Shown here piece after piece: positions 2,973-39,321 of a stretch of 39,321 nt of DNA. The DNA comes from Gammaproteobacteria bacterium (GTDB taxonomy: Bacteria; Pseudomonadota; Gammaproteobacteria; UBA6429; Thiohalophilaceae). The stretch covers positions 1 through 39,321 of the forward strand of contig JAPHTF010000023.1 of the NCBI GenBank assembly GCA_026197095.1, read 5' to 3'. How positions within the stretch are numbered: the first letter of the stretch is position 1; each line of letters starts with the position of its first letter. The notes under the pieces were generated by a model, which was not told the DNA's origin, did not search any database, and saw nothing but the letters and a program-made list of their open reading frames with translations. The position numbers and the translations under genes are program-made.

Positions 2973-3094
2973 AACGCAAAGTAAAAAATATTACTTAAAT
3001 TCTATAATTTTTTATTTGTTTAACGCTAATTTGCTTAAATGATTAAATAAATATTATTCTTTATGACCTTTGCGCCTCTGCACCCTTTGCGTTA
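2973..3094. repeat. Palindromic CGCAAAG repeat element, copy A (left arm degenerate)
   Basis: One end is AACGCAAAG (2973-2981). The other end (3067-3094) reads, on the opposite strand, AACGCAAAGGGTGCAGAGG followed by CGCAAAG. The AT-rich interior is about 85 bp. Unit order and spelling match copy B at 38243-38419, but only one unit survives in the left arm. It has no coding capacity and lies between the DsrE-like gene and mfd. Confidence 0.6.
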
Positions 3095-36709: not shown

Positions 36710-38221
36710 TTAAGCTTCAGGGCGCATATGAGGGAAAAGAAGAACATCGCGTATTGAAGGTGCATCAGTAAATAACATCACCAAGCGATCAATACCAATA
36801 CCCTCACCTGCTGTTGGTGGCATACCATGTTCCAATGCCGTGATGTAATCTTCATCAAAGAACATCGCTTCATCATCACCGGCTTCTTTTTCTTCAACCT
36901 GGGCTTTAAAACGTTCAGCCTGATCTTCTGCATCATTAAGCTCAGAAAAACCGTTAGCAATTTCACGACCACCGACAAAAAATTCAAATCGATCCGTGAC
37001 AAACGGATCGTCATCATTACGACGAGCAAGTGGAGAAACTTCAGTTGGGTATGCGGTAATAAAGGTTGGATTCATTAAACGATGTTCAACGGTTTTTTCA
37101 AAAATTTCTATTTGAACTTTACCTAAACCATATCCATCTTTAAGTGGAATGCCTAAGCGTACCGCAATAGCACGTGCTTTTGTTTCATCATCCAATTCAG
37201 CTTCAGTAATATCATCGTTAAAATGAAGTATAGATTCTTTGATAGTCATGCGATCAAAGGGTTTAGCAAAATCGTAAACATCACCTTGATAGGGTACTAA
37301 CGTTTTTCCAACTACGTTCTCTGCGATTGAACGTAACATCTCTTCAGTAATATCCATCAAATCTTTGTAATCTGCATATGCTTCATAAAATTCGATCATG
37401 GTAAATTCAGGATTATGACGAGTAGATAAACCTTCATTACGAAAGTTACGATTAATTTCAAATACACGCTCAAAACCACCCACGACCAGACGTTTTAAAT
37501 ATAACTCTGGTGCGATACGCAAAAATAAATCCATATCTAATGCATTATGATAGGTAGAAAAAGGTCGAGCCGTAGCACCGCCTGGAATAACTTGCATCAT
37601 CGGCGTTTCAACTTCCAAAAAATTTTTAGCCGTTAAAAACTCACGAATATGCCCAATGATTTTTGAGCGCATAATAAAAGTATCACGCGATTCTTCATTC
37701 ATAATTAAATCAAGATAACGCTGACGATAGCGCGTTTCCTGATCGGTTACGCCTTTAAATTTTTCAGGCAAAGGTCTTAATGATTTGGTCAGCATGCGAA
37801 TATTATCTAACTTTATAGAAAGCTCACCCTGGTTGGTTTTCATCAAAACACCTTCACCACCAATGATGTCACCAATATCCCATTTTTTAAATTGTTCGTT
37901 GTAAACACCTTCAGGTAAATCATCACGAGCAACATAAAATTGAATACGACCTGACATATCCTGTACAGTGGCAAAACTTGCTTTACCCATAACCCGCTTG
38001 AGCATCATACGGCCGGCAACACTGACACGAAGATTTAATTCTGCGAGTTCTTCTTTTGTCTTTTCTGCGTATTCAGCATGTAATTCACCTGCCATTACAT
38101 TGCGACGAAAGTCATTTGGGAATGTCACACCATTAGCTTCACGCATGCCTGCAAGTTTTTGGCGGCGCTCTGCGATCAGCTTGTTTTCATCTACAGGTTG
38201 TTGTTCAGTTTTATCGTTCAT
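36710..38221 (-). CDS. lysS: Lysyl-tRNA synthetase, class II
   Basis: This encodes 503 residues from the ATG at 38221, which has GAG 8 bases upstream; a GTG two codons earlier is too close to that site. LysS charges tRNA-Lys. The N-terminal OB anticodon-binding domain ([18 protein letters not shown]) is followed by the class II core with [10 protein letters not shown] (motif 1), [20 protein letters not shown] (motif 2) and [13 protein letters not shown] (motif 3). It pairs with prfB as in E. coli, but the intergenic space is almost wholly occupied by a palindromic repeat element (38243-38419). Confidence 0.97.
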
Positions 38222-38242: not shown

Positions 38243-38419
38243 ATTTAACGCAAAGTTCGCAAAGACGCAGAGAACGCAGAGAACGCAAAGAAAATCTTAT
38301 TGTTCTTTAAGCTTGGTAAAAATTTGTAGCTGATTAAATAATTAGTATATTATTAATAAACTGCTCTACTATTTATAAAACTTTGCGCCCTCTGCGCCTT
38401 TGCGAACTTTGCGTTAAAT
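38243..38419. repeat. Palindromic CGCAAAG/CGCAGAG repeat element, copy B
   Basis: The termini are 22-bp perfect inverted repeats: 38243-38264 (ATTTAACGCAAAGTTCGCAA, then AG) and 38398-38419. Inward on each side run more 8-9 bp units, CGCAGAG and CGCAAAG: three more in the left arm (to 38290) and two in the right arm (from 38381). The interior is about 90 bp, AT-rich and non-coding. It lies 10 bp after the prfB stop and 21 bp before the lysS ATG. Copy A at 2973-3094 belongs to the same family. Confidence 0.9.
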
Positions 38420-38429
38420 CTCTTATTAT

Positions 38430-39321
38430 CTATAAACCACTTTTCAGGCTGGCTTCAATAAAGATATTTAATCCACCATCAAGCACTGCTTGCGTATTAC
38501 TGCTTTCAACATTAGTGCGTAAATCTTTAATCCGCGACTGATCTAAAACATAAGACCGGATCTGACTGCCCCAACCTATATCCGTCTTGTTATCTTCCAG
38601 CGCTTGTTTTTCCGCATTTTGTTTCTGTAGCTCAAATTCATAAAGCTTGGATTTAAGCTGCTTCATCGCATTATCTTTATTCTGATGTTGTGAACGTCCG
38701 CTTTGGCACTGTACCACGATACCTGTGGGTTCATGGGTTAAGCGAACAGCAGAGTCCGTTTTATTAACATGCTGACCGCCTGCTCCACTGGCTCGATAGG
38801 TATCCACACGTAAATCAGACGGGTTAATTTCTATATCAATATTGTCATCCACTTCTGGTGAAACAAAAACTGAAGAAAACGATGTGTGTCGGCGATTGCC
38901 AGAATCAAAAGGTGATTTGCGAACTAAACGATGTACACCTGTTTCTGTGCGTAACCAGCCAAAGGCATACTCACCGGTAAACTTAATCGTGGCACTTTTA
39001 ATTCCGGCCACCTCGCCTGCTGAGGCTTCAATAAGCTCAGTGGTAAAACCATTACTTTCACCCCAACGCAGATACATACGTAATAGCATTTCTGCCCAGT
39101 CTTGCGCTTCTGTACCACCGGAACCGGCTTGAATATCAAGGAACGCATTATTCGCATCCATTTGACCCGAAAACATGCGTTGAAATTCGAGTTGCTCGAG
39201 GGATTTTTCTTTTTCGTCAAGCTCAGAATCAACAGAATTTACAGTATCCTGATCTTCTTCTTCTGCCGCTAACTCAAGTAACTCTGTAGCATCAGCCAGA
39301 CTCGAATCAAGTTCATCGATA
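38430..39321 (-). CDS. prfB: Peptide chain release factor 2, 5' end outside window
   Basis: The frame is open from the window edge to the stop at 38430 (about 297 residues seen of about 365). RF2 releases polypeptides at UGA and UAA. The stop-codon recognition tripeptide Ser-Pro-Phe is encoded at 38907-38915 ([14 protein letters not shown]), and the catalytic GGQ at 38772-38780 ([15 protein letters not shown]). Visible upstream residues ([30 protein letters not shown]) match RF2 domain 1. The well-known programmed +1 frameshift site near codon 26 would be beyond the window and cannot be judged. lysS follows. Confidence 0.96.

Follow-up and report, generated by a model that had tools for sequence, protein, structure and literature searches.

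A 177-bp palindromic element (38243-38419) fills the gap between prfB and lysS in the window, the whole 39,321-nt stretch of DNA analysed here, which corresponds to contig C96 in a draft genome of 3.12 Mb. The element has terminal inverted repeats and no ORF. Its outer ends (38243-38264 and 38398-38419) are exact reverse complements over 22 bp and lie inside two 39-bp arms, which are 90% complementary and have 99 bp between them. The arms are built from CGCARAG units with 1-2-nt spacers (Table 1). A sequence-only reading of this locus had described the perfect 22-bp terminal repeats and the short distances to prfB (10 bp) and lysS (21 bp), and both descriptions are correct. It had also counted four or more units in one arm and three or more in the other; the arms are indeed uneven, with actual counts of five units in arm 1 and four in arm 2. 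CGCARAG heptamers occur 19 times in the window against 7.8 expected, a number reached in 0 of 100 shuffles, and the element strand folds as RNA far more stably than its shuffles (z = -10.9). Rfam gave no gathering-level match anywhere in the window.

Table 1 Features of the prfB-lysS element, its flanking genes, and a second palindrome in the window.
Feature	Position	Strand	Description
Arm 1	38243..38290	+	AT-rich end ATTTAA, then CGCARAG at 38249, 38258, 38266, 38275, and 38284; spacing 9-8-9-9
Loop	38291..38380		AT-rich; not similar to any other loop that was read
Arm 2	38381..38419	-	Inverted CGCARAG at 38381, 38390, 38398, and 38407; spacing 9-8-9; ends in ATTTAA
prfB, 3' part	38430..39320	-	Upstream gene; TAG 10 bp from the element; runs off the window
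lysS	36710..38221	-	Downstream gene; starts with ATG at 38221, separated from the element by 21 bp
Second, degenerate CGCAAAG palindrome	2975..3091		Between two co-directional ORFs

A dispersed family built from 7-bp units

DNA and pattern searches identified approximately 30 dispersed copies of the element in the source genome. The 18-mer end, with up to two mismatches allowed, gave 30 matches genome-wide, and the reversed control pattern gave none. The design of the copies was read from 20 element regions, in which each copy opens with an AT-rich end and four units and closes with the same arm in inverted orientation, the loop between the arms measuring 5-399 bp. Unit spacing is 9-8-9 bp in 44 arms and, more rarely, 8-9-10 bp in nine arms. 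The parts common to the family are two inverted arms, each with three to five 7-bp C-R-C-N-R-A-G units and 1-3-nt spacers. The units are conserved over the spacers: in the 9-8-9 arms, most fixed letters of the unit reach 95-100% constancy and none falls below 89%, variation is seen at unit positions 4-5, and the spacers are almost unconstrained apart from a purine bias. Picking the arms by unit score inflates this constancy of the units and leaves the freedom of the spacers unaffected.

Maintained pairing between the two arms of a copy was considered and rejected. Among 17 complete copies, spacer identity was 30.6% between a copy's own arms and 35.1% between arms of different copies (permutation p = 0.74), with no left-right covariation at the free positions. 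On the sense strand, mismatches between the arms were G-U in 43 cases and A-C in 39 (p = 0.74), which gives no G-U bias in the transcript. Conserved units without left-right covariation fit recognition by a protein better than selected RNA pairing. The long hairpin that had been predicted to form between the two genes does form in silico; pairing does not appear to be the selected feature, since the free positions of the arms are not kept complementary.

Among the loops compared, those of gene-less copies resemble neither one another nor the GxxExxY gene described below, so no simple deletion-derivative ancestry is visible. An arm lineage test gave a slight excess of near-identical arm pairs, which lies within the permutation range. 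A search of 20 copies for a target-site duplication gave no consistent direct repeat at a fixed offset and no exact element end; the flanks are AT-rich, and no near-identical empty site was found; plasmids (eight matching records) and phages (no match) did not provide one either. At L076 (9217-9321; G000, contig C147), a repeat of about 72 bp is inserted in the right arm of the trpC-crp element. This repeat, another small repeat within the element, has dozens of copies in the genus at 83-97% identity. At L070 (12063-12101), the 3' end of a mazG-like ORF enters an arm, and its last residues are encoded by the unit array.

Position in operons and turnover between species

The copies sit singly between housekeeping genes, and none of those placed is inside a gene. 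The leuC-leuD-leuB-asd operon has four copies in a row, and several more are present in and around the trp genes. Of the copies, 32 have genes on both sides, and for 28 of them these genes are co-directional, little above the base rate (128 of 167). The first arm starts 4-28 nt past the stop codon in 25 of the 28 tandem cases.

The same gaps are occupied differently in related species. The prfB-lysS gap is short and element-free in the congeners G011 and G013. In G012 it contains an 8-9-10 CGCAAAG palindrome; G008 has a palindrome of CACTGGG units there and G014 one of CACNAAG units, and other relatives have unrelated ones. Within the genus, the rpe-gph, trpE-trpG, and trpG-trpD gaps are also empty in some species and filled in others. 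At pepP-ubiH, G103 has an intact GxxExxY gene, which in G406 is interrupted by another palindrome; unit palindromes occupy this site in three congeners. The sequence-only reading had taken the element for a discrete insertion, and the approximately 30 scattered copies together with the empty gap in G011 and G013 bear this out; gaps with and without the element are found among relatives, and it is not conserved at this site. Gain or loss of units, which the same reading suspected from the uneven arms, is seen in a GxxExxY element of G037 (L242), whose arms have five and three CACCAAG-type units, respectively. In prfB-lysS gaps across the taxonomic family (L091-L113), there are unrelated palindromic repeats of the GTCATTCCCGC-, CCCAACAA-, GTGGGCAC-, and GTCATTGCGAG-types. 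The unrelated palindromes in other species indicate that this junction collects many kinds of insert.

Alternatively, the arms could be regulatory or structural sites of the host, such as binding sites of a chromosomal protein or hairpins for mRNA stability, with the GxxExxY gene only a frequent neighbor or passenger. Units that are kept while spacers and loops drift would suit such sites, and so would the preference for co-directional genes, although the latter barely exceeds its base rate. However, pairing is not maintained, and the prfB-lysS, rpe-gph, and trpE-trpG gaps are empty in some congeners and hold other arm classes in others. The distribution of the associated gene, given below, also bears on this explanation.

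The GxxExxY gene and its flanking arms

One copy in the source genome, located in the trpE-trpG gap (contig C147), carries a gene. Between its 9-8-9 CGCAAAG arms are a Shine-Dalgarno site and an ORF for a GxxExxY protein of 125 aa, which scores 146.8 bits with TIGR04256 (cut-off 35) and 143.4 bits with PF13366 (cut-off 22). The genome has only two GxxExxY genes in all, and the other lies between CACAGAG arms. A single GxxExxY gene between the two arms is the complete form of the family. Among 30 loci of the class, most GxxExxY genes are visibly flanked by inverted unit arms, whose sequence is locus-specific (CACAGAG, CGCAGAG, CACGAAG, CGCCAAG, CGCAAAT, or CATGAAG).

We scanned 84,980 species genomes and obtained 80 GxxExxY loci, which are distributed among Bacteroidota, Planctomycetota, Verrucomicrobiota, Chloroflexota, Cyanobacteria, Acidobacteriota, Proteobacteria, Methanosarcinales, and other groups. 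Flanking inverted repeats with a score of at least 30 were present at 70% of 79 loci, compared with 1.5% of the 411 shifted windows; when arms from different loci were paired, 9% reached this score. Arms and gene are associated almost universally among the loci studied, which were drawn from homology-selected samples: chains of at least two units adjoin GxxExxY on both sides at 66 of 105 loci and on at least one side at 99 of 105, against 2 and 14, respectively, of 416 shifted-window controls. Other ORFs had unit chains on both sides in 3 of 259 cases, one of which (in L212) is apparently a second GxxExxY gene. The CGC/CAC type agrees between the two arms of a locus (r = 0.93 in the 105-locus set), and the nearest protein relatives share their arm type in 47 of 66 cases (p = 0.002, in a test that ignores phylogeny). 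Among four loci without a unit chain, L157 and L191 still have units of degenerate or other sequence (CACAATG in L191). Different units adjoin the GxxExxY genes in L126; L138 and L142 (GGATAAACA; CATGAAGAG), which suggests that the arm code is wider than CRCNRAG. In a Bacteroides finegoldii record, the arm-GxxExxY-arm layout is located between radA and the gene of an FAD-dependent protein. CGCAAAG-like strings do occur in unrelated genomes, as the sequence-only reading stated.

The same reading pointed to a REP-associated tyrosine transposase, and the palindromes could then be REPINs or similar sequences mobilized by a RAYT. They are extragenic inverted doublets with variable loops, and the source genome has two Y1_Tnp genes. 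However, unit arrays were found near none of the ten Y1_Tnp loci in five arm-rich genomes, unlike the GxxExxY loci. The associated gene is GxxExxY; the RAYT association was rejected on these ten loci, and mobilization by a RAYT is highly improbable.

The presence of arms follows that of the gene in the 369 genomes of the class, where at least two CGCAAAG-arm matches occur in 30 of 62 GxxExxY carriers and in 13 of 307 other genomes (p = 4e-17). Within the genus, the genomes with an intact CGCAAAG-flanked GxxExxY gene have 123 (G012), 62 (G008), 58 (G000), and 21 (G009) arm matches. G014, whose trpE-trpG GxxExxY copy is broken by stop codons, has 12; the CACNAAG units of its prfB-lysS palindrome also flank a GxxExxY gene in that genome. 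G011 and G013 have three and two matches, respectively, and no GxxExxY gene was found in them; since G011 is a draft with 83% completeness, the absence is less certain there. GxxExxY was not detected in G163 (89 arm matches), G170 (58), or G152 (48), of which G163 and G170 are complete genomes, and the palindromes of G170 share the 9-8-9 layout. The gene is therefore not needed for the persistence of arms. Host sites would be expected to persist in this way, whereas the collapsed arm counts in G011 and G013 and a GxxExxY association that crosses phyla with differing arm sequences argue against them. We consider it unlikely that the arms are host sites with GxxExxY as a mere passenger.

In the GxxExxY alignment, E27, E77-x-K79, and Q91xxxY95 are invariant, and D67 is nearly so. 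The QxxxY motif is a hallmark of RecB/Cas4. The best solved match of the structure model (pLDDT 95) is SSO0001 (4ic1; VIA Z 9.6 over 101 residues), which is a Cas4 protein; lambda exonuclease, LHK-Exo, Hjc, and BamHI match with lower scores. A sequence search of the PDB with GxxExxY returned no homolog. Together with the conserved D...ExK core, the fold match suggests that GxxExxY is a PD-(D/E)XK nuclease of the Cas4/lambda-exonuclease type. A GxxExxY match has also been found where a cas4 gene was expected (PMC8934634).

Certain junctions are used repeatedly. The trpE-trpG and carA-carB gaps carry GxxExxY genes in several families, and carA-carB also does so in Empedobacter (Bacteroidota). 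In the sister species G037 and G038, the flanking DNA is for the most part 85-89% identical, and G037 carries GxxExxY at both of the two sites compared. The genes at trpE-trpG are 92% identical; those at the other site are 54% identical and have different arms (CACCAAG and CACGAAG), representing two different elements. Mean GxxExxY identity is 0.625 at the same site, recent orthologs included, and 0.507 at other sites. Such reuse could mean that GxxExxY is a homing-type endonuclease that cuts a preferred empty junction (trpE-trpG, carA-carB), its cassette being copied by homologous repair and the arms serving in replication, repair, or regulation. The return of different GxxExxY genes to the same junctions, even in a different phylum, fits this explanation, as do the 54% identical pair in the sister species and the existence of clean empty sites. 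However, sharing a site raises the similarity of GxxExxY proteins only modestly, and homing to one site does not explain approximately 30 gene-less copies at many different sites in one genome. Homing is quite improbable as the explanation of the family.

Proposed mechanism and comparison with known systems

We propose that the palindrome between prfB and lysS belongs to a family of GxxExxY mobile elements, as a non-autonomous member without the gene, a reading to which we assign a probability of approximately 0.6. In this reading, the GxxExxY protein would recognize the units of the arms. It may cut at or near the element ends or the target sites, and such cutting could lead to the spread of its own cassette and, in trans, of gene-less arm pairs. 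The preferred sites are directly behind the stop codon of an operon gene, where the host promoter could drive transcription of the cassette (arm, Shine-Dalgarno site, ORF, and arm). Copies without the gene may result from gene loss or may be mobilized arm pairs. A benefit to the host would not be required, and occupied sites turn over between species. A 125-aa nuclease acting without a strand-joining partner would be unusual, which counts against a mobile element.

More tentatively, the family may represent a new class of mobile DNA that crosses phyla, in which a lone Cas4-like GxxExxY protein recognizes arrays of a 7-bp unit in inverted arms. It would spread both its own cassette and palindromes lacking the gene to sites that follow stop codons in the gaps of operons, and the sequence of the arms and the specificity of the nuclease would diverge together; we regard this broader proposal as possible and still doubtful. 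This kind of mobile element is apparently undescribed. The open-access literature, to which our search was confined, contained nothing on the unit strings or on a role of the GxxExxY family. GxxExxY is annotated without function across many bacterial phyla and archaea, and CGCAAAG- or CACAGAG-type repeats adjoin it. Unexplained palindromes and a family of unknown function are thereby joined into one testable system, which predicts unit binding, cleavage, and strain-level mobility. If the DNA does move, it would be a mobile element with a Cas4-like nuclease as its sole protein, and it would account for the recurrent appearance of inserts within bacterial operons.

The REPIN/RAYT system (Bertels and Rainey 2011, PMC3116915) likewise consists of dispersed, inverted extragenic doublets with conserved ends and variable loops, linked to a small protein gene near the same sequences. 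It differs in that the partner here is a predicted PD-(D/E)XK nuclease instead of a tyrosine transposase, the arms here are arrays of 7-bp units, and the RAYT-type genes of the arm-rich genomes have no adjoining units. MITEs are also short and gene-less, with inverted ends common to a gene-carrying copy in the same genome, and the trpE-trpG copy would be the autonomous counterpart only if GxxExxY is a mobility protein. Unlike MITEs, the loops here are not remnants of the gene-carrying copy, no consistent direct repeat was found as a target duplication, and the gene-carrying copy has no transposase of a known family. A similar pairing has been described in Thiomargarita, where a hupL MITE was tentatively tied to a putative PD-(D/E)XK_2 (Yhg-A type) endonuclease gene (PMC4853749); that nuclease belongs to PF12784 instead of PF13366, and its MITE carries inverted repeats of 19 bp and direct repeats of 10 bp in place of unit arrays. 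With the Cas4/lambda-exonuclease nucleases, GxxExxY shares its predicted fold and the motif order E...D...ExK...QxxxY, whereas it is a stand-alone protein of 125 aa without the extra parts of Cas4, and its nuclease activity is a prediction. The Foldback elements of Drosophila have long inverted arms, composed of short tandem units, on either side of a variable central part; the architecture is alike by analogy only, as Foldback is eukaryotic and unrelated in sequence. In its logic, we regard the prfB-lysS element as closest to REPIN/RAYT, with another partner and other ends.
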